A DNA stretch of 40,532 nucleotides from an uncultured Selenomonadales bacterium (GTDB taxonomy: Bacteria; Bacillota; Negativicutes; Selenomonadales; Selenomonadaceae): positions 1 through 40,532 of the forward strand of contig CAMUZU010000019.1 in assembly GCA_947165295.1 (NCBI GenBank). The letters are read 5' to 3'. A program made the position numbers and the translations under genes. Numbering within the stretch: the stretch's first letter is position 1; each line of letters begins with the position of its first letter. This document shows positions 146 through 38,703 of the stretch, piece after piece. The notes below the pieces were generated by a model, which worked only from the letters and a program-made list of their open reading frames with translations, made no database searches and had not been told where the DNA came from.

Positions 146-252
146 GTTACTTTCTTTCGGCGGCGAAAGAAAGTAACCAAAGAAAGCCGCGCCTGCTATG
201 ACGCATCCTGCGTCATGCGACAGGCGACAGCGGCCGTCATCCATGACGGCCG
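146..252 (+). repeat. Triple-hairpin interspersed repeat, copy A
   Basis: Three hairpins follow one another. The first is a perfect 13-bp stem starting GTTACTTTCTTTC (146-158 with 165-177). The second has GCCTG/CAGGC outside and ATGACGC/GCGTCAT inside around loop ATCCT (191-225). The third is a 10-bp stem CGGCCGTCAT/ATGACGGCCG with loop CC (231-252). It lies just upstream of folB. Four related copies occur in this window, all in the same orientation. The function is unknown; it could be a REP-like or MITE-like element, or a structured RNA. Confidence 0.85.
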
Positions 253-296
253 GTCAGCGTTGCGGCGTTGAACAAACTTTTTGAGGAGGCAGATTT

Positions 297-668
297 ATGA
301 CGGACAAAATTATCTTGACGGACATTGAGGTCATGGGGCGACACGGTTGCACGGCGGCCGAACGTCAAACCGAACAGCTCTTTGTCGTCGACGCGGAGCT
401 GTACCTTGACTTGTCGCGGGCGGGCAAAAGCGACGACCTTGACGACACGATCGATTACACGCGGGTTGTCGACGACATCAAAAAAATCGTCGGCGGCGTT
501 CCGCGCAACCTTATGGAGGCCGTCGCGCAGGAAATTGCCGAAACGCTCTTGCGCAAATATTTCCGCTTGAACGGCGTGAAAATCGTCTTGACCAAAGTTG
601 ACCCGCCGGTTGAAAACGCCTTCGCGGGCGCGACAGTTCAAATCGTGCGCAGTCGTTTGGACACGTAA
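297..668 (+). CDS. folB: Dihydroneopterin aldolase
   Basis: A 123-residue protein of normal FolB length. FolB converts 7,8-dihydroneopterin to 6-hydroxymethyl-dihydropterin plus glycolaldehyde in cytoplasmic folate synthesis. The N-terminus (IILTDIEVMGRHGC, about residues 5-18) is the family start, where the strand carries the conserved G-x-x-G/H region. The C-terminal segment VKIVLTKVDPPVENAFAGA matches the family K-P-x-x-(I/V)-x-x-A motif. ATG 297 follows a GAGGAGG site. The stop TAA shares one base with the ATG of the next gene, so the two are probably translationally coupled. folP is not in the window and may lie upstream. Confidence 0.93.
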   Translation: MTDKIILTDIEVMGRHGCTAAERQTEQLFVVDAELYLDLSRAGKSDDLDDTIDYTRVVDDIKKIVGGVPRNLMEAVAQEIAETLLRKYFRLNGVKIVLTKVDPPVENAFAGATVQIVRSRLDT

Positions 669-1579
669 TGATTTATTACGTCGGACTGGGCGGCAACCTT
701 GGCGAACGCGAATTGACGTTGCGTCGAGCAATTGAGCGCGTCAAAAATCTGCCGAACGTCAAACTTCTGCGCGTGTCGTCGTTTTACGAGTCGGAGCCGT
801 GGGGCGTCACGAATCAGCCGAACTTTATCAACGCCGCGATAAAAATTTCGTCGGAACTTGAGCCGCTTGCCCTGCTTGATGAACTTCAGCGAATCGAGGC
901 GGACTTCGGGCGTGTGCGGCTTGAACGTTGGGCGGCGCGAACGCTTGACCTTGACATCCTGCTTGCCGAACGCGAAATTTCCTGCGAGCGGTTGACCGTG
1001 CCGCATCCGCTGTTGTTTGAACGTGACTTCGCGCTTGTGCCGCTGAAAGAAATTTGTCCGTCGCTGAACGTCAAACTTCACGGCGACAAAGTTTCACGCG
1101 TCGAAGGTTCGCCCGTCGACTTCAAGCTTAAACTTGTCGCGTGTGTCGAAAAAAATTTCGGCCTCGGCATAAACGGGCGATTGCTGTTCCGAATCCCCGA
1201 AGACTTGAAACGTTTCCGCAAGTTGACGCTTGACCGCACGATTGTTTTCGGGCGAAAGACTTTGGCGACGTTCCCGAATCAACGGCCGCTTGAACGTCGG
1301 CGAAACATTTTGCTCAGCCGCAGTGTCGAAGAACTTTCGGGCGTCGAAGTCGTCCGCAGTGTTGAAGAACTTTTCAACGTGCTTGACGCGAGCGAAGAAA
1401 GTTTCGTTGTCGGCGGCGCGCAGGTTTATGACGAACTCATTCCTTACGCGGCGGAAATTTTTTTGACTGTCGTCGACGCGGAAGTTCAAGCGGACGTTTT
1501 CTTTCCGAACGTTGACGAATTCATTCTGCGCGACGTTGAAACTTTCGGCGGCTTTGAATTCAGGAGGTACACGCGATGA
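668..1579 (+). CDS. folK: Bifunctional HPPK-dihydrofolate reductase fusion (FolK-FolA)
   Basis: A 303-residue protein with two folate enzymes in series. Residues 1 to about 140 are HPPK (6-hydroxymethyl-dihydropterin pyrophosphokinase): it starts [10 protein letters not shown], continues [17 protein letters not shown], and carries the signature RTLDLDIL near residue 95. After a short linker, about residue 153 onward is dihydrofolate reductase: [17 protein letters not shown], then [20 protein letters not shown] and [14 protein letters not shown]. FolK feeds dihydropteroate synthase and FolA makes tetrahydrofolate two steps later, so the fused activities are not consecutive in the pathway. The DHFR half is close to full length (about 150 residues), so both domains may be active. 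The stop overlaps the ung start (ATGA). Confidence 0.88.
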
Positions 1580-2253
1580 AGAAAATTTTTCGTAACGATT
1601 GGGCAGAGCTTTTGGACGCCGAACTTGACGAGCCGTATTATCTGGCACTGCGACAGTTTTTAATCGGCGAATATCGCACGCGGGAAATTTTCCCAAACAT
1701 GTACGACATCTTCAACGCGCTGCACTTCACGCCTTACGCGTCGACGAAGGTTGTCATACTTGGGCAAGACCCGTATCACGAACCGGGACAGGCGCACGGG
1801 CTGAGTTTTTCGGTTTTGCCGAACGTGCCGCCGCCGCCGTCGCTTATGAACATCTTCAAGGAACTGCGCGACGACGTTGGCTGTTTCATTCCGAATAACG
1901 GTTGCCTCAAGCCGTGGGCACAGCAAGGCGTCCTGCTTTTGAACACGGTTTTGACGGTTCGCGCACACGCGGCGAATTCACATCGCGGGCACGGCTGGGA
2001 AATTTTCACCGACAAAATCATTCGCCTGCTCAACGAACACGAACGCCCGATTGCATTCATCTTGTGGGGACGACCTGCGCGAAGCAAAAAATCCATGATA
2101 ACCAACCCGCGACATTTTATCGTTGAGTCGGCGCACCCGAGCCCGCTTTCGGCAAGCGGCGGATTTTTCGGAAGTCGGCCGTTCTCCCGCGTCAACAAGT
2201 TTCTCGAATCGGTCGGCGAAACTCCGATCGACTGGCAAATCCCGGATATCTGA
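1576..2253 (+). CDS. ung: Uracil-DNA glycosylase, family 1
   Basis: A 225-residue enzyme that removes uracil from DNA as the first step of base-excision repair. The water-activating motif GQDPYH is at residues 63-68 with catalytic D65. It is followed by [12 protein letters not shown], and the DNA-intercalation motif HPSPLSA lies near residue 188. The length matches bacterial Ung. The start ATG lies inside the end of folK-folA (ATGA overlap) and is preceded by an AGGAGG site within the upstream gene, so it is probably co-translated. It ends 13 bases before the next ORF. Confidence 0.96.
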
Positions 2254-2266
2254 AAGGAAACCCTAA

Positions 2267-2647
2267 ATGACAAAGCAAAACATCTCCCGAATCCTGTTGG
2301 CAGTGTTGATTGTGGTGAACGTTTACGCGATTTACCGAATTCACTCGAACATGACGATAAGCTCAAGTTACGACGCGGGTCACTCGCAACGCACGGGCGT
2401 CGGGCAGCTGGAAAGTTTTTGGGCAAAGTACACCGGCAACACGAAACGCTTTGAAATCACGTACGAAGACAAACTCAAAGCCGACGCCGACAGCAACACT
2501 GCAATGATTGTCCTTGGCGTGCTGGACGTCGTGTTAATCGGCGCGATTTACCTGCTCAACAAAAAGCCCGCCGCACCGCCGCCGCGACCGTTGAGCGTGG
2601 AGGAACGCCGCGAACTTCGTTTTGAACGCAAGCGACGCAATCGATAA
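2267..2647 (+). CDS. Small membrane protein of unknown function
   Basis: A 126-residue protein I do not recognise. Residues about 6-24 (ISRILLAVLIVVNVYAIYRI) form one membrane helix, and about 78-97 (AMIVLGVLDVVLIGAIYLL) form a second. Between them is a roughly 50-residue polar loop, and the tail is very basic (EERRELRFERKRRNR). This predicts a hairpin membrane protein with both termini probably in the cytoplasm. An AAAGGAAA site precedes ATG 2267. It is the last gene of the folB-folK-ung run and is followed by a terminator. Confidence 0.7.
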   Translation: MTKQNISRILLAVLIVVNVYAIYRIHSNMTISSSYDAGHSQRTGVGQLESFWAKYTGNTKRFEITYEDKLKADADSNTAMIVLGVLDVVLIGAIYLLNKKPAAPPPRPLSVEERRELRFERKRRNR

Positions 2648-2666
2648 CCGTCACCGCAAATTAAAA

Positions 2667-2704
2667 GCGACCCGTTCGTTTGAACGAGCCGCGATTTTTT
2701 TTTT
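2667..2704 (+). terminator. Rho-independent terminator of the folB operon
   Basis: The hairpin has an inner stem CGTTC/GAACG (2673-2677 with 2682-2686) and an outer GCG/CGC pair separated by small bulges. A run of ten T follows (2695-2704). It sits 20 bases after the last gene of the operon. Confidence 0.75.
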
Positions 2705-2757
2705 AGGGACAAGTGGTAAGGGACATGGGACAAGTTCATTACGCATTACGCATTGAT

Positions 2758-4152
2758 TTACAGCTGACCTTCGAGTTCAAGGTTAATCAAGTTGTTCATT
2801 TCGACGGCGTACTCAAGCGGCAACTCTTTGGCAATCGGTTCGACGAAACCGCGAACAATCATCGCCCGCGCTTCGGCTTCGGAAATGCCGCGTGTCATCA
2901 GGTAAAAAACCGCGTCTTCGGAAATGCGTCCGATTTTCGCCTCGTGACCAATGTCCGCTTCGTCGCCTTCAATGTCCATGACGGGCAACGTGTCGGAGCG
3001 CGATTCGTCGTCGAGCATGAGCGATTCGCAGTTGACGGAGCACTTCGCAAAAGGAGCGTTCTTGGTGACTTTGACCGCCGAACGATAAGTTGCCGCGCCG
3101 CCCGATTTTGAAATTGTTCGTGTGTTAATGTTCGCCGACGTGTGCGGAGCCGCGTGAACGACAATCGCGCCCGTGTCGAGATTTTGTCCGCGACCCGCAA
3201 AGGTAACGCCCGTGAATTCGGCGCGTGCGCCTTCGCCGTGCAAAACACTGCAGGGATAAAGCATCGACACGTGCGAGCCGAAACTTCCGCTGACCCACTC
3301 AATCAAGCCGTCGCGTTCGACCAAAGCGCGCTTCGTGTTTAAGTTCATCATGTTGCGCGACCAGTTTTCAATCGTCGAGTAACGGAGCCTTGCGCCTTCC
3401 TTGACGAACAACTCAACGCAACCCGCGTGCAAGTTTGTGACGTTGTATCGCGGAGCCGAACAGCCTTCAATGAAGTGCAACTTCGCGCCCGGTTCGACGA
3501 TAATCAGCGTGTGTTCAAATTGACCCGCGCCCGCCGCGTTCAATCGGAAGTAAGACTGCAGGGGAATTTTCACGTCGACGCCCGCAGGCACGTAAACGAA
3601 ACTTCCGCCCGACCAAACAGCTCCGTGCAAGGCGGCGAATTTGTGATCTTTCGGCGGAACGAGCGTCATAAAATATTCGCGCACAATGTCTTCGTGTTCG
3701 ACGAGCGCGGTCTCCATGTCCGTGTACACGACGCCTTGATCGGTCAAACGTTTCTGTATGCTGTGATAGACGACCTCCGAATCGTATTGCGCGCCGACAC
3801 CCGCGAGCGATTTTTTTTCGGCGTCGGGAATGCCGAGCCTGTCGAACGTGCGCTTGATTTCGTCGGGCACCTGCGACCAATCGTCGACCTGCTTGGCGTT
3901 GGGCTTGACGTAAGTGACAATTTCGTCCATGTTGAGTTCGGAAATATCCGCGCCCCACGTCGGCAAGTCAATTCGGCGATAAGTTTCCAGCGACTTCAAG
4001 CGAAAGTCCAACATCCACGGCGGGTCTTTTTTGCGTGCGGAAATGTCTCGAACAACTTCCTCCGTCAAGCCCGCGTCGGATTTGTAAATCGACTTGTCGG
4101 CGTCGCGAACGTCGTAAAGTGCCCGTTCAATGTCTGCAATGTAAGTTTTCAT
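2758..4152 (-). CDS. sufB: Fe-S cluster scaffold subunit SufB
   Basis: A 464-residue SufB, the scaffold subunit of the SUF Fe-S assembly complex, working with the SufC ATPase in the cytoplasm. Recognisable family stretches are PPWMLDFRLKSLETY near residue 45, HGAVWSGGSFVYVPAGV near residue 180, FIEGCSAPRY, and the C-terminal region with CSVNCESLMLDDESRSDTLP and GRISEDAVFYLMTRGI. The length is normal. The ATG overlaps the sufC stop (ATGA). No sufD, sufS or sufU lies in the window. A SufBC pair alone is the minimal form found in many anaerobes and archaea, where SufB may work as a homodimer. No terminator-like hairpin is evident before the facing operon's terminator. Confidence 0.95.
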   Translation of the reverse strand: MKTYIADIERALYDVRDADKSIYKSDAGLTEEVVRDISARKKDPPWMLDFRLKSLETYRRIDLPTWGADISELNMDEIVTYVKPNAKQVDDWSQVPDEIKRTFDRLGIPDAEKKSLAGVGAQYDSEVVYHSIQKRLTDQGVVYTDMETALVEHEDIVREYFMTLVPPKDHKFAALHGAVWSGGSFVYVPAGVDVKIPLQSYFRLNAAGAGQFEHTLIIVEPGAKLHFIEGCSAPRYNVTNLHAGCVELFVKEGARLRYSTIENWSRNMMNLNTKRALVERDGLIEWVSGSFGSHVSMLYPCSVLHGEGARAEFTGVTFAGRGQNLDTGAIVVHAAPHTSANINTRTISKSGGAATYRSAVKVTKNAPFAKCSVNCESLMLDDESRSDTLPVMDIEGDEADIGHEAKIGRISEDAVFYLMTRGISEAEARAMIVRGFVEPIAKELPLEYAVEMNNLINLELEGQL

Positions 4153-7784: not shown

Positions 7785-9817
7785 AAAAAGACAGAGCCTT
7801 CGTTCAGTGGCGAATCACGCGGCTGGTTCTGTTCCTGTTGATATTAATCGTCGTCATTGTCCTGCGTTACGGCTGGTTGCAACTGGTTCAAGGCAGCGAG
7901 CTTTCCGAGCGTATGCGTTGGCAGGTCGGGCACGATTATTCGGTTCAGTCGCCGCGTGGCGCAATCGTCGACAGGAACGGCCGCGAACTTGCCGTGAGCA
8001 CAATGACGAAGTCGCTGTTCGTTGACCCCAATCACGTTGAAAATCCCGCCGAACTTGCCAAAGACTTGGCTCCGCTTGTCGACAAAACCGAGCAAGAAAT
8101 TTTGGACGACATTGCGGTCGGCGGCGGTTTTTCGTGGGTCAAACGAAGGCTTGAGCAATCCGAATACGAGGCGATTCGCACGCTGATTCGCGATAAAGGT
8201 TACGCGGTGTGTCTTGGCTTCCGCGACGAGGCGAAACGTTATTATCCCAACGACGTGCTTGCCGCGAATATTTTGGGCTTCGTCGGCACGGACGACAAAG
8301 GTCTCGACGGCATTGAACAGGCGCTTGACAAGTACATCAAGGGCGAAGTCACCGAGTCGTTCATTTACGCCGACACGCAGGAACGCCCGATACTCGAATC
8401 AATCTTCACGCCGCACGGTTATCAAGGCGACAGGTGCAAGACGATTCAGCTGACGATTGACAGCGCGATTCAATTTATCGTTGAGCAGGAACTCGATCGC
8501 GCAATGGCGGAGAACAGCCCGCTGTCGATAACCTGCATTGCAATGGATCCGCATACGGGCGAAATTCTCGCAATGGCAAACCGCCCGTCGTACAATCCCA
8601 ATCGCTTTTGGGACTACGAGCCCGAAATTTGGAAAAATCGCGCCGTGTCTTACATTTACGAGCCCGGCTCCACGTTTAAAGCTGTCGTCGCGGGTGCCGC
8701 GTTGCAGGAAGGTCTTGTTGCGCCGAATCAAACTTTCGTCGACCCCGGTTATGTCATGGTTTCGGGCAAGCGAATTCAAAACTGGAACGGTCTGAGCTTC
8801 GGCACGGTCACTTTCGCCGACGTGGTTAAACAGTCGCTCAACACGGGCTTTGCGCTTGTCGGCTTGGACTTGGGCGCGGACAAACTCATCAGTTACGCGA
8901 AACTTTTCGGCTTCGGCGAATTGACGGGCATTGAACTTCCCGGCGAAGAGGCGGGACTTCTTTACGAGCCTTATGAGATGGTTGACTCCGACATTGCGAC
9001 AATGGCAATCGGTCAAAGTATCGCCGTCACGCCGCTCCAGTTGATAACGGCTTTTTGCGCCATTGCCAATGACGGAATTTTACTCAAGCCGCACATCGTC
9101 AAACAGATTCGCAACGCAAACGGTTCGATTTACAGCGAAACGCACGTTGAAGAAGTTCGACGCACGATTGATTCAGCCACCGATAAAACTTTGGTCGGCC
9201 TGCTTGAACAGGTCGTTGCTTCAGGCGGCGGCGGCAAAGCGTCCGTTCGCGGCTACCGTATCGCGGGCAAAACCGGTACCGCGCAGAAAGTCAGCGAATA
9301 CGGCACGGGCTACAGCGAAGGCAAATACATTGCATCGTTCTGCGGCTTCGCGCCCGTCGAAAATCCGCAAATTGTTCTGCTGGTCATGATTGACGAGCCT
9401 TACGGAACTTTTTACGGCGGACAAATTGCCGCGCCCGTTGCGGGAAGAATTTTTTCGCAGGTCTTTCGTTACATGAGGATTGAGCCGTCCGACGCGCCGC
9501 TTGGTCTTGACGCCGACGAAATCAGCGACGATGTCGGCACGGGTGACGCGGCGATTCAAAACATTCAACAGCACAGAGAGCCGACGCCCAAAGAGATTGA
9601 GCCGAAAGTTGAAGAGCCGCCCAAAGAAACTCTTGCGCCCGAAGCCGCACGCGTGCCGAGTTTCAACGGTAAGAGTATCCGCGAAAGTGCGCGCCTTGCA
9701 AACGAGGCGGGTCTTGCCTTCGAGGCGGAAGGTTCGGGCTTCGCGGTTGACCAAAGCGTTCCCGCAGGCGAAATCGTCGACAAAGGCACGGCGGTCAAAG
9801 TTTATTTCAGCCCGTGA
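7781..9817 (+). CDS. Class B penicillin-binding protein with PASTA domain (FtsI/SpoVD type)
   Basis: A 678-residue peptidoglycan transpeptidase. One membrane anchor lies at residues about 11-30. A dimerisation domain follows (SPRGAIVDRNGRELAVS). The transpeptidase domain has the active-site motif STFK at 297-300, SLN at 352-354 and KTGTA from 497. After a proline- and glutamate-rich linker (about 600-625) the last 55 residues form one PASTA domain (VPSFNGKSIRESARLANEAGL). It crosslinks peptidoglycan at division or elongation; FtsI/SpoVD is the closest type because of the PASTA tail. Such genes normally sit in the dcw cluster; here it is with a small membrane protein instead, suggesting an additional paralogue. 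The start ATG overlaps the upstream stop. Confidence 0.92.
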   Translation: MKKDRAFVQWRITRLVLFLLILIVVIVLRYGWLQLVQGSELSERMRWQVGHDYSVQSPRGAIVDRNGRELAVSTMTKSLFVDPNHVENPAELAKDLAPLVDKTEQEILDDIAVGGGFSWVKRRLEQSEYEAIRTLIRDKGYAVCLGFRDEAKRYYPNDVLAANILGFVGTDDKGLDGIEQALDKYIKGEVTESFIYADTQERPILESIFTPHGYQGDRCKTIQLTIDSAIQFIVEQELDRAMAENSPLSITCIAMDPHTGEILAMANRPSYNPNRFWDYEPEIWKNRAVSYIYEPGSTFKAVVAGAALQEGLVAPNQTFVDPGYVMVSGKRIQNWNGLSFGTVTFADVVKQSLNTGFALVGLDLGADKLISYAKLFGFGELTGIELPGEEAGLLYEPYEMVDSDIATMAIGQSIAVTPLQLITAFCAIANDGILLKPHIVKQIRNANGSIYSETHVEEVRRTIDSATDKTLVGLLEQVVASGGGGKASVRGYRIAGKTGTAQKVSEYGTGYSEGKYIASFCGFAPVENPQIVLLVMIDEPYGTFYGGQIAAPVAGRIFSQVFRYMRIEPSDAPLGLDADEISDDVGTGDAAIQNIQQHREPTPKEIEPKVEEPPKETLAPEAARVPSFNGKSIRESARLANEAGLAFEAEGSGFAVDQSVPAGEIVDKGTAVKVYFSP

Positions 9818-9824
9818 GGTGAAC

Positions 9825-9926
9825 GTTACTTTCTTTGGCAGCAAAGAAAGTAACCAAAGAAACTGCGCTTGCTGTGATACGTCCTGTATCACGCGCAAGC
9901 GGTGCGGCCGACGTCCATGTCGGCCG
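9825..9926 (+). repeat. Triple-hairpin interspersed repeat, copy B
   Basis: Hairpin 1 has stem GTTACTTTCTTTG (9825-9837 with 9842-9854). Hairpin 2 has GCTTGC/GCAAGC and GTGATAC/GTATCAC around loop GTCCT (9865-9900). Hairpin 3 has CGGCCGAC/GTCGGCCG (9905-9926), where the usual T-A pair is replaced by A-T. It lies directly after the PBP stop, between two plus-strand genes. Confidence 0.85.
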
Positions 9927-9958
9927 GATTTTCTGTCGTCGGTGCGTGAGGTGTCGTC

Positions 9959-18756: not shown

Positions 18757-18800
18757 GTTGATGGCAGCGGCGTTGTCGCAATTCAAGTTTTGTGTGAATC

Positions 18801-18812
18801 TACTTTCTTTCG
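18801..18812 (+). repeat. Triple-hairpin repeat copy C, left half of hairpin 1
   Basis: TACTTTCTTTCG is the 5' arm of hairpin 1. Its partner arm CGAAAGAAAGTA is at 19900-19911, on the other side of the IS30 element. Confidence 0.75.
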
Positions 18813-18824
18813 GCGCGCGAATTG

Positions 18825-19808
18825 TCAAACGAAGTGCAACGGGGTTGAAAACCACACTTCCCACGGACTTTTGTAACCCAAACATTTTCGTGGTCGCTTG
18901 TTCAACTGCTCAACCACCGCTTGTAAAGTTTCCTCGCTCAGCTCGTTGAAGTCAAAGCCTTTAGGAAAATATTCCCGAAGCAACCCGTTCGTGTTCTCAT
19001 TGCTTCCGCGCTCCCATGGGTGTCGGGGTTTAGGAAAGTAGAACTCTACTCCTAATTCTTTGGTAACGTTGCCATGTCGACGAAATTCTCTTCCTCTATC
19101 CGGCGTTATCGAATGTAGCGGTTCTCTAACCAAAAGTTTTATCATTGCTTGCTCTACTTCTTTATCGTCAAGTTTTGATATTTTTGTGGCAAAGAGAAAG
19201 CGACTTTTTCTGTCGACCAAAGTCAACAATGCGGCTTTTCCAAACTTGCCTAAAACGGTATCCGCCTCGAAATCGCCAAGCCGACTGCGTTCATTTGCTT
19301 CGACGGGACGCGCTGACAATTCGTTCGTGATTGGAATTTTCCCGCGATTGGACACATAACCTTTCGGGCGGCGCGGTTTGCCACGGTGGCGCAGTCTTCT
19401 TATCGCACCGCGATTACCTGTCGAACGTTTCTGCTCGGGCGTGTCGAACATGCCTGCGTAAATCGCCCGATAAATCGTCTTGTAACTTACCCGAATCGGA
19501 TAATTTTCAAGCTTCAATCGCTGCGCAATTTGTTCGGGCGACCAACGGTTATCAAGGAAAAGTATCTTGACGAGGTTGAACAATTCGGGCTGTGCAAGCT
19601 TTTTGTGCGGACAAGATTTTTTGCGACGGCGTTGGTAACATGCTTGCGCTTTGCTCGGTGAATAATCTGTTGCGTTACGCTTGAGTTCGCGGGAAATGGT
19701 GGACTTGTTCCTGCCGAGGAGTTTGGCGATTTGGTAGCCGGACATGCCTTGTGCCCGATAGAACATTAGCATTTCGCGCTCTGTTATGCTAAGATGTTTG
19801 TAACTCAC
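18825..19808 (-). CDS. IS30 family transposase
   Basis: A 327-residue transposase. The N-terminal helix-turn-helix is LSITEREMLMFYRAQGMSGY followed by QIAKLLGRNKSTISRELKRN. The DDE core follows: first D in GDFEADTVLGKFGKAALLTLVDR, second D in HSITPDRGREFRRH, and the Glu in ERGSNENTNGLLREYFPKG. All three catalytic residues and the full length are present, so it could be active. The start is GTG 19808 after AGGAGA. The start and ribosome site lie within a large inverted repeat (19804-19820 with 19847-19861). Confidence 0.93.
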   Translation of the reverse strand: MSYKHLSITEREMLMFYRAQGMSGYQIAKLLGRNKSTISRELKRNATDYSPSKAQACYQRRRKKSCPHKKLAQPELFNLVKILFLDNRWSPEQIAQRLKLENYPIRVSYKTIYRAIYAGMFDTPEQKRSTGNRGAIRRLRHRGKPRRPKGYVSNRGKIPITNELSARPVEANERSRLGDFEADTVLGKFGKAALLTLVDRKSRFLFATKISKLDDKEVEQAMIKLLVREPLHSITPDRGREFRRHGNVTKELGVEFYFPKPRHPWERGSNENTNGLLREYFPKGFDFNELSEETLQAVVEQLNKRPRKCLGYKSPWEVWFSTPLHFV

Positions 19809-19861
19809 GGTATCTCCTGCCTTTGTAAGAGGTTACAAATTTTTTAGCAGGATACTGTGAG
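19804..19861 (-). promoter_or_regulatory. Stem sequestering the transposase ribosome site and start
   Basis: CTCACGGTATCTCCTGC (19804-19820) pairs with GCAGGATACTGTGAG (19847-19861), with an inner hairpin TTTGTAA/TTACAAA (19822-19828 with 19832-19838). In a transcript entering from outside the element, the AGGAGA site and the GTG start would be in the stem. This is a common way for insertion sequences to stay silent under read-through. Confidence 0.6.
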
Positions 19862-19899
19862 TTTTTCATCTGTTGCACTTGGATTGTACATTCGCGCAG

Positions 19900-19985
19900 C
19901 GAAAGAAAGTATCAAAGAAAGCCGCGCTTGCTGTGATACATCCTGTATCACGCGCAAGCGGTGTGGCCGTCATCCGTGACGGCCG
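19900..19985 (+). repeat. Triple-hairpin repeat copy C, right part
   Basis: It contains the 3' arm of hairpin 1 (19900-19911), hairpin 2 with GCTTGC/GCAAGC and GTGATAC/GTATCAC around ATCCT (19924-19959), and hairpin 3 GGCCGTCAT/GTGACGGCC with one T-G wobble (19965-19984). Confidence 0.8.
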
Positions 19986-28425: not shown

Positions 28426-28453
28426 GATAAAACCTCCAAACGAACGATTTAAC

Positions 28454-28558
28454 GTTACTTTCTTTTGGCAGCAAAAGAAAGTAACCAAAGAAAACTGCGC
28501 CCGCTACGATACATCCTGTATCGTGCGCGTGCGGTTGCGGCCGTCATCCATGACGGCC
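28454..28558 (+). repeat. Triple-hairpin interspersed repeat, copy D
   Basis: Hairpin 1 is a 14-bp stem GTTACTTTCTTTTG with its complement (28454-28485). Hairpin 2 has inner stem ACGATAC/GTATCGT around ATCCT (28506-28524). Hairpin 3 is GGCCGTCAT/ATGACGGCC with loop CC (28539-28558). It lies between two minus-strand genes and therefore opposes their transcription. Confidence 0.85.
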
Positions 28559-29250: not shown

Positions 29251-29261
29251 CGCCTGCACGC

Positions 29262-29440
29262 AAAATTTTTCGACAGCGCGAATCGTCGGCGGGCGACGTT
29301 GCGGTTGCCGTTACGCAAAATTTTTTCGACAGCGCGAATCGTCGGCGGGCGACGTTGCGGTTGCCGTCGCACAAAATTTTTCGACAGCGCGAATCGTCGG
29401 CGGGCGACGTTGCGGTTGCCGTCGCACAAAATTTTTCGAC
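29262..29440. repeat. Tandem 55-bp repeat, about three copies
   Basis: The unit runs AAAATTTTTCGACAGCGCGA followed by ATCGTCGGCGGGCGACGTTG and CGGTTGCCGTCGCAC. The word TTCGAC recurs with spacings of 56, 55 and 55 bases (cgac at 29271, 29327, 29382 and 29437). The copies are almost identical. Each contains a hairpin CGTCG-gcggg-CGACG. The array fills the gap between the flavodoxin and aroF promoters (29192-29512 has no gene). It could be an iterated protein-binding site or simply slippage-amplified sequence. Confidence 0.85.
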
Positions 29441-33617: not shown

Positions 33618-34058
33618 ATGACCGAACTTAAAAGCCTCGGCAAGACGACCGCTTACAAATACGATTACTCGCCCGAATTTTTGGAGGCGATACCCAACGT
33701 CAACAGCCACCGCGATTATTTCGTCACGTTGACCAGCGACGAATTCACTTGCCTGTGCCCGATAACTCATCAGCCCGACTACGCGACGATTAAAATCCGC
33801 TACGTGCCCGACGCCAAACTTGTCGAGAGCAAAAGCCTCAAGCTGTACCTGACGAGTTTTCGCAACCACGGCACGTTTCACGAGGAAGTTGTCAACACGA
33901 TTGCCGACGATCTGATTAAGCTGTTGGAGCCGCGTTATCTCGAAGTCGAAGGACTTTTCAACGTGCGCGGCGGAATTTCGATTGTGCCGTTCGTCAACTT
34001 CGGGCGCGGCGAATTTGAATCCGTCGCGAAAAAAATTCTGGTTGAACGTCATGCTTAA
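33618..34058 (+). CDS. queF: NADPH-dependent 7-cyano-7-deazaguanine reductase
   Basis: A 146-residue unimodular QueF. It reduces the nitrile preQ0 to the amine preQ1 in queuosine synthesis. The catalytic Cys is C47 in [14 protein letters not shown], with the conserved Asp at 54. The QueF signature [20 protein letters not shown] follows at about residue 74. The length agrees with the Bacillus type. ATG 33618 follows AAAGGAG. The stop overlaps the next start by eight bases. Confidence 0.96.
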
Positions 34059-34881
34059 ACAGAAACGACTTGCGCTAATCAACGACATAACGGGCTTCGG
34101 GCGTTGTTCGGTGACGGTTGAGTTGCCGATAATTTCCGCGCTGAAAATTCAAGTGTGTCCGCTGCCGACCGCGTTACTTTCCGTGCACACGGGCTTTGAA
34201 AATTATTTCTTGGACGACTTCACCGACCGCACGCAAATTTATCTGGACAGTTGGCGCAAAAACAATTTGACCTTCGACGCGTTGGCGACGGGCTTTTTCG
34301 GCTCTGCCGCGCAGATTGAAATTGTTCGCCGACATTTGCAGACGTTCCCCGCGACGGTGATTGTCGATCCCGTCATGGGCGACCACGGCAAAATTTACAA
34401 GTCATACACCCGCGACATGTGCCGAAGTATGCGCGGACTGTTGGAGTTTGCCGACCTCGTCACGCCGAACTTGACGGAGGCCTGTGAACTTTTGGGCGTC
34501 GCGTATCCTGCAGGCGGCGTCATTTCAGATTCGGAGCTTGCGACTTTGGCGGCGAACATTGCGGCGAAAACTCGCGGCGGCCGCGTGATAATCACGGGCG
34601 TTGCGACGGACTTTGACGACGGCTCGAACATTGCGAACTTTGTTTTCGACCACGGGCAAGTTGACTTCGTTGCGTCGAAGAAAATCGGCGGCGACCGTTC
34701 GGGTACAGGTGACGCGTTCTTTGCGGTGACTGCGGCGTCTTGGCTCAACGGCGAAAGTTTGTCGGACGCGACGCGCAAGGCGGCTCACTTCGTCGGTAAA
34801 TGTATCGCGCACGCCGAAAAACTCAATCTGCCGTGGAATTACGGTTTGCCGTTTGAAGAGTTTTTAACCGAGTTGCAATGA
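34051..34881 (+). CDS. Pyridoxamine/pyridoxal kinase, PdxY-like
   Basis: A 276-residue ribokinase-superfamily kinase. It begins [20 protein letters not shown], which is the family start (I-x-D-x-x-x-x-G). It then has [38 protein letters not shown], and the phosphotransfer motif [12 protein letters not shown] with catalytic D near residue 226. It phosphorylates vitamin B6 vitamers with ATP in salvage. Start ATG 34051 lies within the end of queF. A terminator follows at once, closing the aroF-to-kinase run. Confidence 0.87.
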
Positions 34882-34882
34882 A

Positions 34883-34915
34883 AAAATCCCCGCCGTGTTG
34901 ACGGGGACTTTTTTT
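34883..34915 (+). terminator. Rho-independent terminator
   Basis: TCCCCG (34887-34892) pairs with CGGGGA (34902-34907), followed by C and seven T (34909-34915). It lies after the pyridoxamine kinase stop and, on the other strand, just after the aldehyde dehydrogenase gene. Confidence 0.8.
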
Positions 34916-34939
34916 GTGTGCGGCGTTGACCGCGTCGAA

Positions 34940-36427
34940 TCAGTACAGACCCGACGGCGATTCGCTCATGTTGATGTAAATGTTTTTCTTCTGCGTGTAA
35001 GCATTGAGAATCAGCTTGTGAGTTTCGCGACCGATGCCGGATTTTTTGTAGCCGCCGAACGGTGCGCCCGCAGGCAATTCGTTGTAGGTGTTAATCCACA
35101 TGCGGCCGGTTTCAATCGCACGGGCGACGCGCAACGCACGGTTGATGTCTTTCGTCCAGACCGCGCCGCCGAGACCGTATTCGCTGTCGTTCGCCATTTT
35201 GACAACTTCGTCTTCGTCGTGGAATTTGACGACGACCGCGACGGGGCCGAAAATTTCTTCGCAAGCGACGCGCATATTGTTGTTGACGTCGGCAAGAATC
35301 GTCGGTTGCATGAACGCGCCTTTTTCGCCGCCTTCGACTTGAGCACGTTGACCGCCCGTAATGACCTGTGCGCCTTCGGACTTGCCGATTTCGACGTAAT
35401 TCAAAATCTTTTCAAGCTGACGGTTGTCAATCTGCGAACCCATTTGCGTTTCAGGCTCCCACGGCAAACCGACTTTGACGGACTCGAACTTGGCTTTGAC
35501 GGCGGCAAGGAATTTGTCGTAAATGGTATCCTGCACGAAGATTCGCGAACCCGCGCAACAGACTTGACCTTGATTGAACAGAATGCCCATGCACGCGCCG
35601 TCAATCGCCTTGTCGAAGTTGCAATCGTCGAAGTAAATGTTCGCGGACTTGCCGCCGAGTTCCAACGTCGCGGGAATTAATTTCTTCGCGGCGGCTTCGG
35701 CGACGGCGTAACCGACTTCCGTCGAGCCCGTGAACGCAAGCTTGCGAATGTCGGGGTGATCGAGGACGAATTGACCCGTCTTTGAACCGCTGCCCGTGAC
35801 GATGTTCAAGACGCCCGCAGGAAGTTCATTTTCGATGAGTTTCATTAATTCGAGGACGCTGAGCGACGTTGTTGACGACGGCTTGAAGACGATACAGTCG
35901 CCCGCGCCGATAGCCGGAGCCAACTTCCACGCCGCCATTGCGAACGGGAAGTTCCACGGCACGATTTGCCCGACGACGCCAATCGGCTCGTTGAGGATGA
36001 TGCTCATGACGTTATCGCTGAGCATGGACGCCGCGCCTTCTTCGGCACGAATGACGCCCGCGAAATAACGGAAATGGTCGGAACTCAACGGGATGTCGAC
36101 GGCGGTCGTTTCGCGAATCGGCTTGCCGTTGTCGAGCGTCTCAATCATTGCAAGATGATCTTTGTTCGCGTCGATGATGTCGGCGATTTTCAGGAGAATC
36201 GCGGCGCGTTCGGCAGTCGAAGTTTTCTTCCACGCAGGGAACGCCTCCCACGCGGCTTTGACGGCTTCGTCGACGTCGGCTTTGCTTGCGGCGGCGACTT
36301 TGCACATGTACTCACCGTTCGCGGGATTGTACACGTCGAAAGTTTTGCCGCCTTCTGCGTCGCGCCACTTGCCGCCAATGTAGAGTTGGTAGCTGTCCTG
36401 CCAAATCTTCTTCGGAGTTGTCGCCAT
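34940..36427 (-). CDS. NAD(P)-dependent aldehyde dehydrogenase
   Basis: A 495-residue member of the aldehyde dehydrogenase superfamily. It has VVGQIVPWNFPFAMAAWKLA, the general-base E256 in LELGGKSANIYF, the nucleophile C290 in NQGQVCCAGSRIFVQ, and EEIFGPVAVVVKF. The closest general type is the acetaldehyde/betaine-aldehyde group; the substrate cannot be told. I start at ATG 36427 (MATTPKKIWQDSYQLYIGGK) behind GGGAGGG; the frame further upstream includes the promoter region. It stands alone between terminators. Confidence 0.93.
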   Translation of the reverse strand: MATTPKKIWQDSYQLYIGGKWRDAEGGKTFDVYNPANGEYMCKVAAASKADVDEAVKAAWEAFPAWKKTSTAERAAILLKIADIIDANKDHLAMIETLDNGKPIRETTAVDIPLSSDHFRYFAGVIRAEEGAASMLSDNVMSIILNEPIGVVGQIVPWNFPFAMAAWKLAPAIGAGDCIVFKPSSTTSLSVLELMKLIENELPAGVLNIVTGSGSKTGQFVLDHPDIRKLAFTGSTEVGYAVAEAAAKKLIPATLELGGKSANIYFDDCNFDKAIDGACMGILFNQGQVCCAGSRIFVQDTIYDKFLAAVKAKFESVKVGLPWEPETQMGSQIDNRQLEKILNYVEIGKSEGAQVITGGQRAQVEGGEKGAFMQPTILADVNNNMRVACEEIFGPVAVVVKFHDEDEVVKMANDSEYGLGGAVWTKDINRALRVARAIETGRMWINTYNELPAGAPFGGYKKSGIGRETHKLILNAYTQKKNIYINMSESPSGLY

Positions 36428-36455
36428 AAGAAATTCCCTCCCGTAAATGAAATTC

Positions 36456-36492
36456 GCCGTAATTATACTGCACGGCGGGCGATTCATGTCAA
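36456..36492 (-). promoter_or_regulatory. Promoter and possible operator of the aldehyde dehydrogenase gene
   Basis: On the minus strand there is TTGACA (36487-36492), a 19-base spacer and TATAAT (36462-36467). The -10 box is enclosed by a perfect inverted repeat CGCCGT/ACGGCG (36456-36461 and 36473-36478), a plausible repressor site. Confidence 0.5.
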
Positions 36493-36511
36493 GAAATTTT
36501 TTCGCCGCCGT

Positions 36512-36519
36512 GATATAAT
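36512..36519 (+). promoter_or_regulatory. -10 element of the toxin-antitoxin operon
   Basis: GATATAAT contains a perfect TATAAT (36514-36519) with TG just before it, 28 bases upstream of the antitoxin ATG. No good -35 is visible. Confidence 0.45.
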
Positions 36520-36547
36520 CGGGCAAAACTTCAAAGGAGCGATTCAC

Positions 36548-36820
36548 ATGAAATACGTAAGCATCGTCGACGCCAAAGAACGCCTTGCCGACCTGATAGA
36601 ATTTTTGCATGACGACCCGCACGCGGAAGTTTACTTGACTTTCAACGACAAGCCCGTCGTTAAAATGACGTCGGTCACCGAAGACTTGTCGCCCGTCGAA
36701 GAGCCGAAGCCGATTCGCCGCGCCGGTATCGCTAAGGGTCAATTCACTTTCGACGACGAACTGTTCGACGCATTGGACGCCGACATCGACAAAATGTTTT
36801 TCGGGGAGGCGGCACAATGA
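36548..36820 (+). CDS. Phd/YefM-type antitoxin
   Basis: A 90-residue protein. It starts KYVSIVDAKERLADLIEFLH and continues VYLTFNDKPVVKMTSV, the N-terminal DNA-binding fold of Phd/YefM antitoxins. The C-terminal part is acidic (FDDELFDALDADIDKMFF) and should be the toxin-binding tail. It probably neutralises the PIN toxin and represses its own promoter. ATG 36548 follows AAAGGAG by six bases. The stop overlaps the toxin start (ATGA). Confidence 0.85.
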   Translation: MKYVSIVDAKERLADLIEFLHDDPHAEVYLTFNDKPVVKMTSVTEDLSPVEEPKPIRRAGIAKGQFTFDDELFDALDADIDKMFFGEAAQ

Positions 36821-37221
36821 AAGTTTTGCTCGACACGCACATTCTCGTTTGGTACTTCACCGACGACACGAAACTTTCGACCAAAGCACGCAAGCTGATT
36901 GAGGACGACGCGAACGAAATCTATTATAGCATCTTGTCCGTTTTGGAAGTCGAAATCAAACACGCGGCACATCCCGACCGTCTTTCGTTGAGCGGCGAAG
37001 ACTTCATCAATTACTGCAAGAAACTGGGATTCGCTCAAGTTCCGCTTGACGTTGCGCACGTCCTCGAAGTGAAAAAGTTGACGCGCAAAGAAAACACGCC
37101 GCCGCACCGCGATCCGTTCGACAAGCTCATGCTCGGTCAGGCGATTGTCGAAAGCATGTTGTTTATCACGCACGACATGCGAATTGCCGAATACACTTGC
37201 CCGCTGATTTACAAAATCTGA
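36817..37221 (+). CDS. vapC: PIN-domain ribonuclease toxin
   Basis: A 134-residue PIN-domain protein. The acidic active-site residues are D6 (VLLDTHILVW), a central Glu (SVLEVEIKH), then D98 to D101 (HRDPFDKLMLGQA) and a late Asp (FITHDMRIAEY). These proteins cut RNA, often initiator tRNA or rRNA. All usual acidic positions appear present and the frame is intact, so the pair is probably functional. It is translated together with the antitoxin through an ATGA overlap. Confidence 0.9.
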   Translation: MKVLLDTHILVWYFTDDTKLSTKARKLIEDDANEIYYSILSVLEVEIKHAAHPDRLSLSGEDFINYCKKLGFAQVPLDVAHVLEVKKLTRKENTPPHRDPFDKLMLGQAIVESMLFITHDMRIAEYTCPLIYKI

Positions 37222-37240
37222 ATGCGATTAACCGTCGCAA

Positions 37241-37275
37241 TAAAAAATCCCGCCGAAGCGACGGGAAATTTTTTT
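37241..37275. terminator. Bidirectional terminator between vapC and fabF
   Basis: TCCCG (37248-37252) pairs with CGGGA (37262-37266), with further CG pairs around an AAG loop. It is flanked by six A and seven T, so it can serve both converging genes. Confidence 0.78.
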
Positions 37276-37288
37276 GCGTGAAAAGTTT

Positions 37289-38533
37289 TTATCCGACGAA
37301 CTTTCGGAAGGCGACGCAAGCATTGTGTCCGCCGAAGCCGAACGAATTTGAAATTGCCGCGTTGACATTGAGCGTTTGACTTTTGTTCGGAACGTAATTC
37401 AAGTCGAGTCCGTCGTCGGGCGTTTCGTAATTAATCGTCGGGTGGACAATGCCCGTTTCAATCGACAGGACGGTTGCAATGGCTTCGACGCCGCCCGCCG
37501 CGCCGAGCATGTGCCCGGTCATTGATTTCGTCGACGAGACCGCCAACTTGTACGCGTGTTCACCGAAGAGAATTTTAATCGCCTCAGTTTCGCCGCGGTC
37601 GTTGAATTGCGTCGAAGTTCCGTGCGCGTTTACGTAATCAATTTCTTCAGGCTTCAAACCCGCGTCGTCAAGTGCAAGTTTCATGCAAGCCGCTTGAGTG
37701 TGACCGCCGGGCGCAGGCGTGGTGATGTGATAAGCGTCGTTGTTGCTTCCGTAGCCGACAATTTCCGCGTAAATGTGTGCGCCGCGATTCAAAGCGTGAT
37801 TGAGTTCCTCAAGCAGAATAATTCCCGCGCCTTCGCCCATGATAAAGCCGCTGCGGTTTTTATCGAACGGTCGCGACGCATGAGCGGGGTCGTCGTTGTG
37901 ATCGGAGCACAAAGCCTTCATTGCCGCGAAACCGGACACGCCTGCGGGAGAAATTGCCGCTTCGGAGCCGCCCGCGAACATTAAATCAGCCTCGCCGCGT
38001 TGAATCACTCGAAAAGCGTCGCCGATTGAGTTTGTGCCCGACGCGCACGCCGTAACAATGCATTCGCTTGGGCCGTGAAGTTTAAACGCAATCGCGACGT
38101 TGCCCGCCGCCATGTTCGCAATCATCATCGGGATAAAGAACGGGCTGATTCGCGAAGGTCCTTTGGTGAAAAGTTTTTCGTATTGATTGTGTAAAGTTTC
38201 CATGCCGCCGATACCCGAACCGACGTAAACGCCCGCACGGTTACTGTCGACGGTCGCAAGGTCGAGCTTTGAGTCTTCAAGCGCAAGACGCGTCGCCGCC
38301 AAAGCAAACTGCGTGTATCTGTCCATGCGCTTGACTTCTTTTTTGTCGATGAATTGCACGGGGTCGAAGTCGGTTACTTCGCCGGCAATCTGCGCGGTGA
38401 ATTCGGTCGGGTCGAAGCGCGTAATTTTTCCGATGCCGTTTCGCCCGTCGATTAAAGACTGCCAAAAGTTTTGCCAACCGATGCCAAGCGGGGTGACTGC
38501 GCCGAGACCCGTGACCACAACTCTGTTATTCAA
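37289..38533 (-). CDS. fabF: 3-oxoacyl-ACP synthase II
   Basis: A 414-residue condensing enzyme of fatty acid elongation. It starts VVVTGLGAVTPLGIGWQNFW. The catalytic Cys is in VTACASGTNSIGDA, and the two histidines are in VNAHGTSTQFND and SMTGHMLGAAGGVEA. The C-terminus NSFGFGGHNACVAFRKF is the family ending. The start TTG 38533 follows GGAGG. The length is normal. It stands apart from other fatty acid genes here, with repeat copy E upstream. Confidence 0.96.
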   Translation of the reverse strand: MNNRVVVTGLGAVTPLGIGWQNFWQSLIDGRNGIGKITRFDPTEFTAQIAGEVTDFDPVQFIDKKEVKRMDRYTQFALAATRLALEDSKLDLATVDSNRAGVYVGSGIGGMETLHNQYEKLFTKGPSRISPFFIPMMIANMAAGNVAIAFKLHGPSECIVTACASGTNSIGDAFRVIQRGEADLMFAGGSEAAISPAGVSGFAAMKALCSDHNDDPAHASRPFDKNRSGFIMGEGAGIILLEELNHALNRGAHIYAEIVGYGSNNDAYHITTPAPGGHTQAACMKLALDDAGLKPEEIDYVNAHGTSTQFNDRGETEAIKILFGEHAYKLAVSSTKSMTGHMLGAAGGVEAIATVLSIETGIVHPTINYETPDDGLDLNYVPNKSQTLNVNAAISNSFGFGGHNACVAFRKFVG

Positions 38534-38598
38534 AAGTACCAGCCTCCTTTGTGCGCGATTATAACCGCGAAAAATTTTTTGTGCAACGTGCGGGGTTT

Positions 38599-38703
38599 GT
38601 TACTTTTCTTTTGGCGCAAAAGAAAAGTAACCAAAAGAAAACAGCCCGCAGGTGAAACATCCTGTTTCAACCGCGGGCGAGCGGCCGTCATCCATGACGG
38701 CCG
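38599..38703 (+). repeat. Triple-hairpin interspersed repeat, copy E
   Basis: Hairpin 1 is a 15-bp stem GTTACTTTTCTTTTG with its complement (38599-38631). Hairpin 2 has GCCCGC/GCGGGC and TGAAAC/GTTTCA around ATCCT (38644-38678). Hairpin 3 is CGGCCGTCAT/ATGACGGCCG (38682-38703). Stem sequences of hairpin 2 differ completely from the other copies, but pairing and loop are kept. Confidence 0.85.

Follow-up and report, generated by a model that had tools for sequence, protein, structure and literature searches.

What kind of element is a three-hairpin unit that recurs five times in one stretch of a rumen bacterium genome? The stretch, here called the window, comprises 40,532 nucleotides of contig CAMUZU010000019.1 from an uncultured Selenomonadales bacterium, and the unit is a short structured repeat, dispersed through the genome, which keeps its folded shape and not its sequence. 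Five copies (A to E) had been placed in the window by a sequence-only reading, and matches to a covariance model agree with these positions to within one base (145-251, 9824-9925, 19885-19984 with a split left half near 18801, 28453-28558 and 38598-38702). Below, "reader's strand" denotes the unit as read in the window and "reverse strand" its opposite. The parts of the copies are as follows.

146..177, minus strand: copy A hairpin 1, 13 bp with a GGCGGC loop, proposed to be S2 of a pseudoknot
178..190, minus strand: copy A linker CAAAGAAAG (proposed third strand) and pseudoknot partner CCGC (187-190), which pairs with GCGG of the hairpin 1 loop (160-163)
191..225, minus strand: copy A hairpin 2 with an ATCCT loop, reverse-strand AGGAT
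232..251, minus strand: copy A hairpin 3 with an ATCCAT loop, reverse-strand ATGGAT
9813..9821, no strand: copy B left target duplication CGTGAGGTG
9825..9854, minus strand: copy B hairpin 1, GCAG in loop (9838-9841)
9855..9866, minus strand: copy B linker CAAAGAAA and pseudoknot partner CTGC (9863-9866)
9867..9900, minus strand: copy B hairpin 2, loop GTCCT
9906..9925, minus strand: copy B hairpin 3, with a T-A to A-T swap
9945..9953, no strand: copy B right target duplication CGTGAGGTG
18799..18820, minus strand: copy C hairpin 1, left half, severed by a presumed IS30-type element
18828..19808, minus strand: transposase within copy C hairpin 1 (Pfam HTH_38 and rve), which we take to be of IS30 type
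19885..19984, minus strand: copy C right part (remaining hairpin 1, linker, hairpin 2, and hairpin 3 at 19965-19984)
28454..28485, minus strand: copy D hairpin 1, loop GGCAGC (GCAG at 28468-28471)
28486..28498, minus strand: copy D linker CAAAGAAAA (28486-28494) and pseudoknot partner CTGC (28495-28498)
28499..28532, minus strand: copy D hairpin 2, loop ATCCT (28513-28517)
28539..28558, minus strand: copy D hairpin 3, loop ATCCAT
38599..38631, minus strand: copy E hairpin 1, of a short-loop type without a pseudoknot of at least 4 bp
38632..38641, minus strand: copy E linker CAAAAGAAAA
38644..38678, minus strand: copy E hairpin 2, loop ATCCT
38683..38702, minus strand: copy E hairpin 3, loop ATCCAT

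A dispersed family with a conserved fold

The interruption reported for copy C proved to be the transposase ORF listed above, and the family is far larger than five copies. In the host's own genome (G000; 2.49 Mb, 80% complete), the covariance model matched all 150 of the candidates scored, from 3049 in all, and the 40 units counted over 376,603 bases, on three large contigs, extrapolate to approximately 265 copies genome-wide. A survey under the stricter filters applied for more than 40 genomes detected the repeat in 27 of 36 same-genus genomes and in none of 23 other genomes of the class.

It had been argued from paired changes that the fold is what is kept. The middle-stem variants and ATCCT/GTCCT loops quoted in support are all present in the sequence, as is the T-A to A-T swap in copy B, and in an alignment (A2) of 22 of 28 copies, which leaves out near-duplicates and the IS-split copy C, the stems covary and changes are mostly paired. 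Paired cells make up 93.9% of this alignment, as against 34-50% after shifting the 3' partners by 1-3 columns, and both sides are altered in 70 cells where 23.8 are expected, a count reached in 0 of 500 shuffles that leave the relatedness of copies in place; further pair types (21) do not exceed the shuffles (22.7). Z-scores of -7.6 to -9.0 were obtained for six RNA folds, four on the reverse strand and two on the reader's. Unpaired stem changes had been named as the observation that would count against a kept fold, and isolated mismatches do exist: in the three hairpins of a 190-unit set we counted 77 that are G.T when read on one of the two strands, and 112 others. This set joins matches of at least 39 bits, further matches and 27 of 29 extra loci, with identical rows removed and two loci left out (L033, an own copy, and L059, a hairpin 1 misfit), and its members were picked by a model already containing the hairpins, the linker and the hairpin 3 loop.

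A fixed (A/G)TCCT loop had been assigned to the middle hairpin; a near-fixed loop does exist, but in hairpin 3, where RTCC lies within the last 32 bases of 190/190 units and RTCCNT in 181 (the model contains this loop), the reverse-strand loop being ANGGAY in 181 of 190. The hairpin 2 loop varies, with ATCCT commonest beside ATCAC, TTCCG and others, and most units have a pentaloop or a non-GGA loop there on the reverse strand. Of the two loops in which a CsrA-binding RNA would be expected to carry ANGGA, one is near-fixed and the other variable in the 190 units. ANGGAY hexaloop hairpins in the host's own stretches lie inside units in 102 cases and outside in 2, both of which belong to copies missed by the unit list. 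The near-fixed loop appears to be of CsrA-site type and may bind CsrA, which the host genome encodes adjoining FliW.

The suspicion that the unit might be undescribed fits our searches: window copies gave nothing significant in Rfam, where no family was reached at its gathering score, the exact repeat sequence was absent from the literature searched, and in a literature search with the short CTTTCTTTG, AAAGAAAGTAACC was not found among the matches listed. The three-part pattern gave 0 matches in viral contigs and the full unit none in phage sequences. Weak matches to a 45-base hairpin 1 query occur in 15 phage records, nine from Prevotella Lak phages, and the one Lak and one Acinetobacter phage locus that we checked do not fit the module pattern.

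A predicted pseudoknot and a mirror linker

The loop of hairpin 1 is predicted to pair with bases just beyond the AAAGAAA linker, forming a pseudoknot that had not been noted earlier. Among 167 of the 190 units that could be parsed, 25 of 54 distinct loop/partner haplotypes have at least 4 Watson-Crick pairs, whereas permutation gave a mean of 10.4 and a maximum of 19 (0 of 2000 reaching 25); outside the genus, 20 of 28 distinct haplotypes reach this level, where permutation averaged 4.7 and peaked at 12 (0/2000 as high), the rows being related copies so that these counts are not strict probabilities. Fewer than 4 pairs are found in 31 of 107 own units, 13 of 16 in one relative (G034) and 31 of 44 in other relatives.

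A second regularity concerns the linker, which mirrors the purine arm of hairpin 1 and does not copy it. Of 186 units parsed from the 190, 77 have an asymmetric purine arm, and in 74 of these the linker is mirror-like (63 exact mirrors and 11 mirror-leaning with one run of another length), the remainder being one copy-leaning case and two symmetric linkers; in copy D, for example, linker CAAAGAAAA is the mirror of arm AAAAGAAAG. Pairing of the linker with the 5' arm in an alternative Watson-Crick hairpin, which predicts a copied linker, was rejected, given 0 exact copies and 1 copy-like case among the 77. Where the innermost pair is T-A the linker has A in 37 of 37 units, and where it is C-G the linker has G in 31 of 32; with G-C, a pair that offers no Hoogsteen purine on that strand, the linker has G in 6, A in 7 and C in 13 (96 of 190 units fitted the pattern used for this tally).

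Read on the reverse strand, the mirror linker corresponds to a Hoogsteen rule (U.A-U, C+.G-C), a pattern seen at the level of sequence, and covariation indicates that third-strand bases follow this rule along the stem, with a weaker signal in a stricter comparison. The 3' end of a reverse-strand RNA may thus form a major-groove triple-helix pseudoknot resembling that of telomerase RNA. Such an RNA would run from a 5' ANGGAY-loop hairpin through a second hairpin, often with an AGGAU loop, to a 3' pseudoknot. This last part would combine a short S1 stem (GCAG/CTGC, for instance), a U-rich strand (such as UUUUCUUUGG) and the roughly 13-bp hairpin S2, the loop of which would supply the second half of S1. 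In this classic H-type topology the U-rich strand would lie in the deep groove of S2, forming U.A-U and C+.G-C triples. Telomerase RNA has comparable triples in its pseudoknot, and SAM-II and preQ1-II likewise are H-type pseudoknots with a U-rich strand in major-groove U.A-U triples. The repeat shares the predicted topology but is bacterial, mobile and of high copy number, its C+.G-C triple moves with the stem, and, unlike telomerase, we find no link to a reverse transcriptase. If correct, this provides a covariation signature for a predicted triple helix in bacteria, one that shifts along with its stem.

Relationship to TwoAYGGAY

The first hairpin had been recognised as resembling a repeat in other bacteria, and it recurs in Caballeronia, Ilyobacter, Pasteurella, Psychromonas and others. 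One search found at least 83 stretches, at least 22 of them outside Selenomonadaceae. The putative triplex design appears also to be present in unrelated bacteria. Three Psychromonas genomes carry 12, 37 and 30 matches to TwoAYGGAY (RF01731), of up to 76.7 bits (gathering 43). Among 30 loci tested out of 80 matches, 23 have a downstream hairpin preceded by a Hoogsteen-rule tract of at least 6 bases (tract/arm examples being TTTCCTTT/AAAGGAAA, TCTCTTT/AGAGAAA and CTCTTTT/GAGAAAA), and runs are shorter in seven (L289, L292, L295, L285, L302, L291, L276), with the wrong hairpin apparently picked by the script in L292 and L295. The observed sum of tract matching was reached by 0 of 1000 between-locus shuffles. 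A reversed-arm control scored nearly as high (175 vs 185) because many tracts are symmetric, and the stricter comparison, with 25 cases, favours parallel matching in 11, antiparallel in 4 and neither in 10.

We regard the repeat as an architectural relative of TwoAYGGAY RNA, with the same predicted 3' module as in Psychromonas, where it lies directly 3' of TwoAYGGAY. Both have many copies per genome and, on the reverse strand, two tandem hairpins with GGA-type loops, which in the repeat are near-fixed in one hairpin and variable in the other; the repeat differs in having no long enclosing stem, a pentaloop in hairpin 2 and scores below the gathering cut-off. Rather than two AYGGAY-loop hairpins, units have the ANGGAY loop of hairpin 3 and mostly other loops in hairpin 2. 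RF01731 does not match the window copies or a further 20 loci, gives 0 matches in the host's own genome (6 of 55 candidates scored), and has no match in 6 of 10 outside genomes searched, all six of which show the module pattern (Rudaea, Methylobacter, Lysobacter, Mucilaginibacter, a Lysobacterales and a gamma MAG). Elsewhere in the phylum, 30 RF01731 loci inspected by eye have a long closing stem in most cases, and the triplex module was not seen beside them. The module extends a little-studied Rfam motif; the passages on that motif that we consulted do not describe it, and sequence and topic searches did not find it.

Bacillaceae-1 (RF01690), whose loops are both RUCCU, matches weakly on the reader's strand at 12.4 bits (E = 7.5), below its gathering score of 35. 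TwoAYGGAY and the reverse complement of Bacillaceae-1 are predicted in PMC4333381 to bind CsrA, and this prediction becomes directly testable for the TwoAYGGAY class in named Psychromonas strains. A more far-reaching proposal, which we consider doubtful, is that TwoAYGGAY forms one branch of a wider, cross-phylum class of RNA-coding mobile repeats combining a CsrA-type hairpin pair with a 3' telomerase-style triplex pseudoknot; in rumen Selenomonadaceae, hundreds of copies would act as genome-wide CsrA decoys whose spread involves no known transposase.

Mobility, strand and competing explanations

The repeat is mobile: copies insert intergenically in both orientations, creating target duplications that differ in length. 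The unit is approximately 107 bp, with 123 bp between the duplications of copy B. Flanking direct repeats of 11-38 bp are present at 12 of the 112 own units and at 0.37% of mismatched flanks, although three of the twelve (two at L158, one at L164) belong to tandem pairs and could stem from tandem duplication. At the copy B junction, seven of eight relatives that keep both flanking genes lack the element, as judged by eye. An origin through a RAYT was rejected, there being no Y1_Tnp match in the host's own genome (80% complete), as was one through a reverse transcriptase: RVT_1 is absent from that genome and from G006, G028 and G034, all with many copies, and among congeners (11 of 36) it does not track the repeat (6 of 27 with, 5 of 9 without). 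A 107-bp repeat at hundreds of copies, with variable-length duplications and neither REP transposase nor reverse transcriptase found, is a puzzle.

Our preferred explanation, to which we assign a probability of roughly 0.55, is a mobile non-autonomous structured repeat whose reverse-strand RNA is TwoAYGGAY-like with a triplex end. Copies would spread by intergenic insertion with variable-length target duplication, transcripts crossing a copy would display CsrA-type hairpins and a triplex-stabilised end, and copies might act as CsrA decoys or mRNA 3'-end modifiers, persisting mainly as mobile DNA. The reverse strand is the likely functional one; only there, as we infer, would the pseudoknot and third-strand layout have natural deep-groove geometry. 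Counting against the preferred reading, wobble haplotypes point to no clear strand, with G.T on the reverse strand in 19 cases and on the reader's in 12 (9:2, 5:6 and 5:4 for hairpins 1 to 3), and orientation preference is slight: in co-directional gaps the two strands are sense 38 times each in own stretches, and 12 (reverse) and 6 (reader's) times in G034.

A possible but rather unlikely alternative is a palindromic DNA-level repeat of REP/MITE type, recognised by an enzyme as folded single-stranded DNA or H-DNA, in which RNA plays no part. The intergenic placement, both orientations, hundreds of copies and target duplications suit this reading, wobble pairs do not clearly favour either strand, and mirror purine tracts can form DNA triplexes. 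Moreover, foreign sequence lies inside hairpin 1 of three copies, reminiscent of the insertion sequences that target REP elements elsewhere. The repeat resembles REP/REPIN elements with RAYT in being short, palindromic, intergenic and present in hundreds of copies, but is an asymmetric three-part unit with variable-length duplications and no Y1_Tnp in its genome; congeners give partial-length matches in 5 of 36, one below the cut-off. The predicted strand-specific geometry and the presence of the module after TwoAYGGAY, a family modelled as RNA, also argue for the RNA-based reading.

Improbable, in our view, is a bidirectional terminator or 3'-end stabiliser, with hairpin 3 followed by T-rich sequence and, in the other direction, hairpin 2 followed by a T-tract. 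Divergent (promoter) gaps are avoided, with 7 of 109 copies there as compared with 50 of 242 gaps (p = 0.0005); for convergent gaps the figures are 26 of 109 copies and 39 of 242 gaps (p = 0.10), and G034 copies have T-rich 3' flanks. Against this, copies D and E have no terminator-like match, the one plus-strand match at copy B is within shuffled expectation (1.2), and the fixed loop, pseudoknot and mirror rule are left unexplained. Scans around copies B, D and E gave no promoter for a reverse-strand RNA and no reverse-strand terminator, the promoter-like match beside copy E (minus strand, 38585-38558) lying beyond the RNA 3' end; together with the little orientation preference, this does not support a dedicated sRNA or cis element. 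A host-maintained CsrA-sequestering sRNA family like CsrB or RsmZ is very improbable: hairpin pairs with one GGA loop nearly always, a CsrA gene adjoining FliW and the published binding prediction must be set against hundreds of scattered copies and nine of 36 congeners that have CsrA, all nine, and no repeat match.

Replication-strand bias was discarded, being weak in own contigs (p = 0.006) and absent in G034, with GC skew too small as a guide. The regular spacing of about 10 kb and the shared strand of the window copies look like chance, since the coefficient of variation of spacing is 0.07 in the window and 0.64-0.91 in three other own contigs and one contig of a relative, and 57 of 112 own units lie on the plus strand.

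Copies, distribution and mobility

All five copies described in the sequence-only reading are present, at positions right to within one base; the unit order on the forward strand is hairpin 1, purine linker, hairpin 2, hairpin 3.

Copy A, 146-252
Copy B, 9825-9926, flanked by direct repeats CGTGAGGTG at 9813-9821 and 9945-9953
Copy C, 18801-19985, interrupted
Copy D, 28454-28558
Copy E, 38599-38703, of a short-loop sub-family

We regard the family as a mobile structured repeat, with a probability of about 0.9. The same reading had argued that stem changes stay paired, and indeed covariation was strong in a model built from 22 copies, with 93.9% of cells paired versus 34-50% in slid controls. 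Double-changed stem cells numbered 70, against 23.8 in shuffles of this alignment, and the number of further pair types in stems was not higher than in shuffles. The window's own genome (2.49 Mb in 110 contigs, 80% complete) holds at least 150 model matches, from 150 scored candidates, and extrapolation from 40 units in 376,603 bases of three large contigs, picked after hits had already been seen on them, gives about 265 genome-wide. Covariance model searches matched the repeat in 27/36 same-genus relatives and in none of 23 other genomes of the class, while a 20-base pattern of hairpin 1 and linker, allowing at most one mismatch, occurred in 2/299 genomes of a phylum sample (this genome and one other). 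Carriers among the matches listed are rumen Selenomonadaceae/Selenomonas MAGs.

Units are intergenic, overlapping genes (as judged with a simple purpose-made gene caller) by fewer than 35 bases in 102/112 cases here and 32/33 in the same-genus relative G034. They avoid divergent gaps, and between co-directional genes both orientations occur (38 and 38 here; 6 and 12 in G034). Direct repeats of at least 11 bp, spanning 11-38 bp, flank 12/112 units of the own genome, three of the 12 in tandem pairs, versus 0.37% of mismatched flanks. At the copy B junction, both neighbouring genes are kept in 8 of the 29 relative loci examined; by eye, seven of the eight carry no element, with the genes 11-13 bases apart in four, and the eighth (L141, from relative G026) carries a different, longer and independent one. 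Given these empty junctions and the flanking repeats, the most likely history of copy B is insertion after the split, with duplication of the target. Neither the RAYT/REP transposase domain Y1_Tnp nor the reverse transcriptase domain RVT_1 had a match in the own genome (80% complete), and the distribution of neither follows the repeat.

Hairpin 1 is itself an insertion target, since copy C is split there by an element whose transposase (Pfam HTH_38 and rve) we take to be IS30-type. Nearly the same sequence replaces the left of hairpin 1 in units at L076:10137 and L065:1978, and is probably the end of an insertion sequence targeting this hairpin.

Several variant arrangements were also observed. 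Three complete units lie in tandem at L081:3918-4450, with a 213-bp period that includes host flank. Longer units of about 165 bp occur at L074:11225, L151:17666, L155:5779 and L160:8481, the first of which, inspected in full, has additional bases ahead of hairpin 2. A GCTTG-type loop in hairpin 1, like that of Proteobacteria and Fusobacteria, is present in four units of the own genome; these forms may be nearest to an ancestral or imported one. In contig C16 of G034 (L083, L088, L092, L101), units are adjoined by short repeats that resemble hairpin 3 and have GTCCATG loops (e.g. AAGCGCGTGCGTCCATGGCGCGC), and hairpin 3 seems able to multiply independently of the whole unit.

A predicted pseudoknot and a mirror-image linker

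Bases directly past the linker are complementary to the hairpin 1 loop, and the pairs covary (loop/partner GCAG/CTGC, GCGG/CCGC, GCGT/ACGC and CGAG/CTCG in the own genome; GCGCC/GGCGC, AAGCCC/GGGCTT and GCGTC/GACGC in relatives). At least four pairs form in 25 of 54 distinct loop/partner haplotypes, where permutation gave a mean of 10.4 and a maximum of 19 in 2000 trials. By parsed unit, such pseudoknots occur in 76/107 from the own genome, 3/16 from G034 and 13/44 from other relatives; the short-loop sub-family (copy E and most of G034) has none. The linker, furthermore, mirrors hairpin 1's purine arm.

Purine arm of hairpin 1 and the linker that accompanies it
A4GA3 with A3GA4
A3GA4 with A4GA3
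A3GA5 with A5GA3
A4GA5 with A5GA4
A5GA4 with A4GA5

Asymmetric arms, found in 77/186 parsed units, were accompanied by an exact mirror in 63 and by a mirror-like linker (one run of another length) in 11; the rest comprised one copy-like and two symmetric linkers. An alternative hairpin of arm and linker would need a copied linker, and with no exact copy among the 77 it is not the main cause of this regularity. The innermost pair of the stem fits this regularity too, T-A accompanying linker A in 37/37 and C-G accompanying linker G in 31/32. Innermost G-C pairs followed no rule (linker G 6, A 7, C 13); a single A-T pair accompanied G.

Viewed on the reverse strand, the linker becomes a T/C tract that runs parallel to the purine arm, with T opposite A-T and C opposite G-C, and at the sequence level it matches the U.A-U and C+.G-C Hoogsteen rule. 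The order S1a (loop/partner pairing), U-rich strand, S2a (hairpin 1 stem), S1b, S2b would make an H-type pseudoknot in which the first loop occupies S2's deep groove. If the forward strand were read as the RNA, the purine linker would instead be the last loop, in the shallow groove, where the Hoogsteen rule would have no obvious basis. Because deep-groove geometry would explain the rule and the shallow groove would not, we favour the reverse strand as the functional RNA strand. G.T pairs, which counted by haplotype number 19 on the reverse and 12 on the forward strand, clearly favour neither. A triple-helix pseudoknot on the reverse strand is the fold that we consider probable.

The module outside the genus and its relation to TwoAYGGAY

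Hairpin 1 had also been said to resemble a repeat of other bacteria, and the module of hairpin 1, linker and pseudoknot does recur outside the genus. At least four pseudoknot pairs were present in 21/36 module matches at the non-selenomonad loci inspected, and in 20/28 distinct haplotypes (permuted mean 4.7, maximum 12 in 2000 trials).

Pseudoknot pairs outside the genus
Methylobacter, GTCGCC/GGCGAC
Pseudoxanthomonas, CGTGC/GCACG
Caballeronia, GCTGC/GCAGC
Pasteurella, TGTA/TACA
Ilyobacter, TGCC/GGCA
Psychromonas, GTGCC/GGCAC

In Rudaea, 11/12 copies have only three pairs, and no pseudoknot pairing was found in module copies from Lysobacterales and Mucilaginibacter. At L116 and L117 (Caballeronia), the Burkholderia sRNA candidate Bp1_684 (Rfam) matches just under cut-off on the opposite strand, immediately adjoining the hairpin 1 module.

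In Psychromonas, the part past the pseudoknot is Rfam TwoAYGGAY (RF01731) on the reverse strand (a 60.6-bit match at the L196 module; gathering threshold 43), and three genomes carry 12, 37 and 30 matches. The single match in Pseudoxanthomonas is under cut-off, and six other module-bearing genomes have none. Among 30 fetched TwoAYGGAY loci (29 Psychromonas, one Pseudoxanthomonas), the downstream hairpin is preceded in 23 by a tract obeying the Hoogsteen rule over at least six bases, in which C positions shift along with the stem (TTTCCTTT/AAAGGAAA, TCTCTTT/AGAGAAA, CTTTTT/GAAAAA). The summed Hoogsteen run was 185, against a maximum of 162 in 1000 shuffles; an arm-reversal control still scored 175, because many tracts are symmetric. 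In a stricter comparison (n=25), parallel matching won 11, lost 4 and tied 10 against antiparallel.

TwoAYGGAY was matched in 50/398 genomes of other phylum members (33 above cut-off) and not in the own genome, where 6 of 55 candidates were scored; 30 loci from these members, read by eye, had no triplex module and, in most, a long closing stem. By the tests applied here the repeat does not belong to TwoAYGGAY, though it resembles a member in layout; in the cases seen, its 3' module lay either beyond the RF01731 match or at the extreme end of that match. In the portions of the literature consulted, a 2014 proposal has CsrA bound by TwoAYGGAY and by the reverse complement of Bacillaceae-1 (RF01690; PMC4333381), a 2025 preprint terms the TwoAYGGAY motif relatively unexplored (PMC11661157), and no mention of a 3' triplex was found in PMC2864571 or PMC11701678.

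GGA-type loops and other repeats

The (A/G)TCCT loop of hairpin 2 was initially thought fixed; ATCCT (AGGAT on the reverse strand) is the commonest there, yet other loops also occur. RTCC lies in the last 32 bases of 190/190 units, which were found with a model already containing an RTCC loop, and RTCCNT in 181/190, corresponding to ANGGAY on the reverse strand. Hairpins of at least 6 bp with an ANGGAY hexaloop numbered 102 inside units and two outside in 781 kb of the own genome, both of the latter in repeat copies absent from the unit list (L066:6464, under the score limit; L081:4131, dropped as a duplicate). In the same 781 kb, five scrambled versions of the loop pattern turned up 0 to 2 times each; a sixth, ANCCAY, gave 83 in units and two outside, largely the same hairpins on the other strand. 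The CsrA/RsmE site is ANGGA in a hairpin loop, and the own genome encodes CsrA, adjoining FliW. We tentatively predict CsrA binding by the repeat RNA, as a possibility somewhat short of even odds.

Both contig ends (1-140 and 40306-40532) lie within other repeats, probably the cause of the assembly break there. A 100-bp tandem unit (AACGTTTCGGGTCACACC...) occupies 40349-40532, with related copies at 64-102 and 4951, and a further tandem repeat (55-bp unit, 3.3 copies) lies at 29257-29440.
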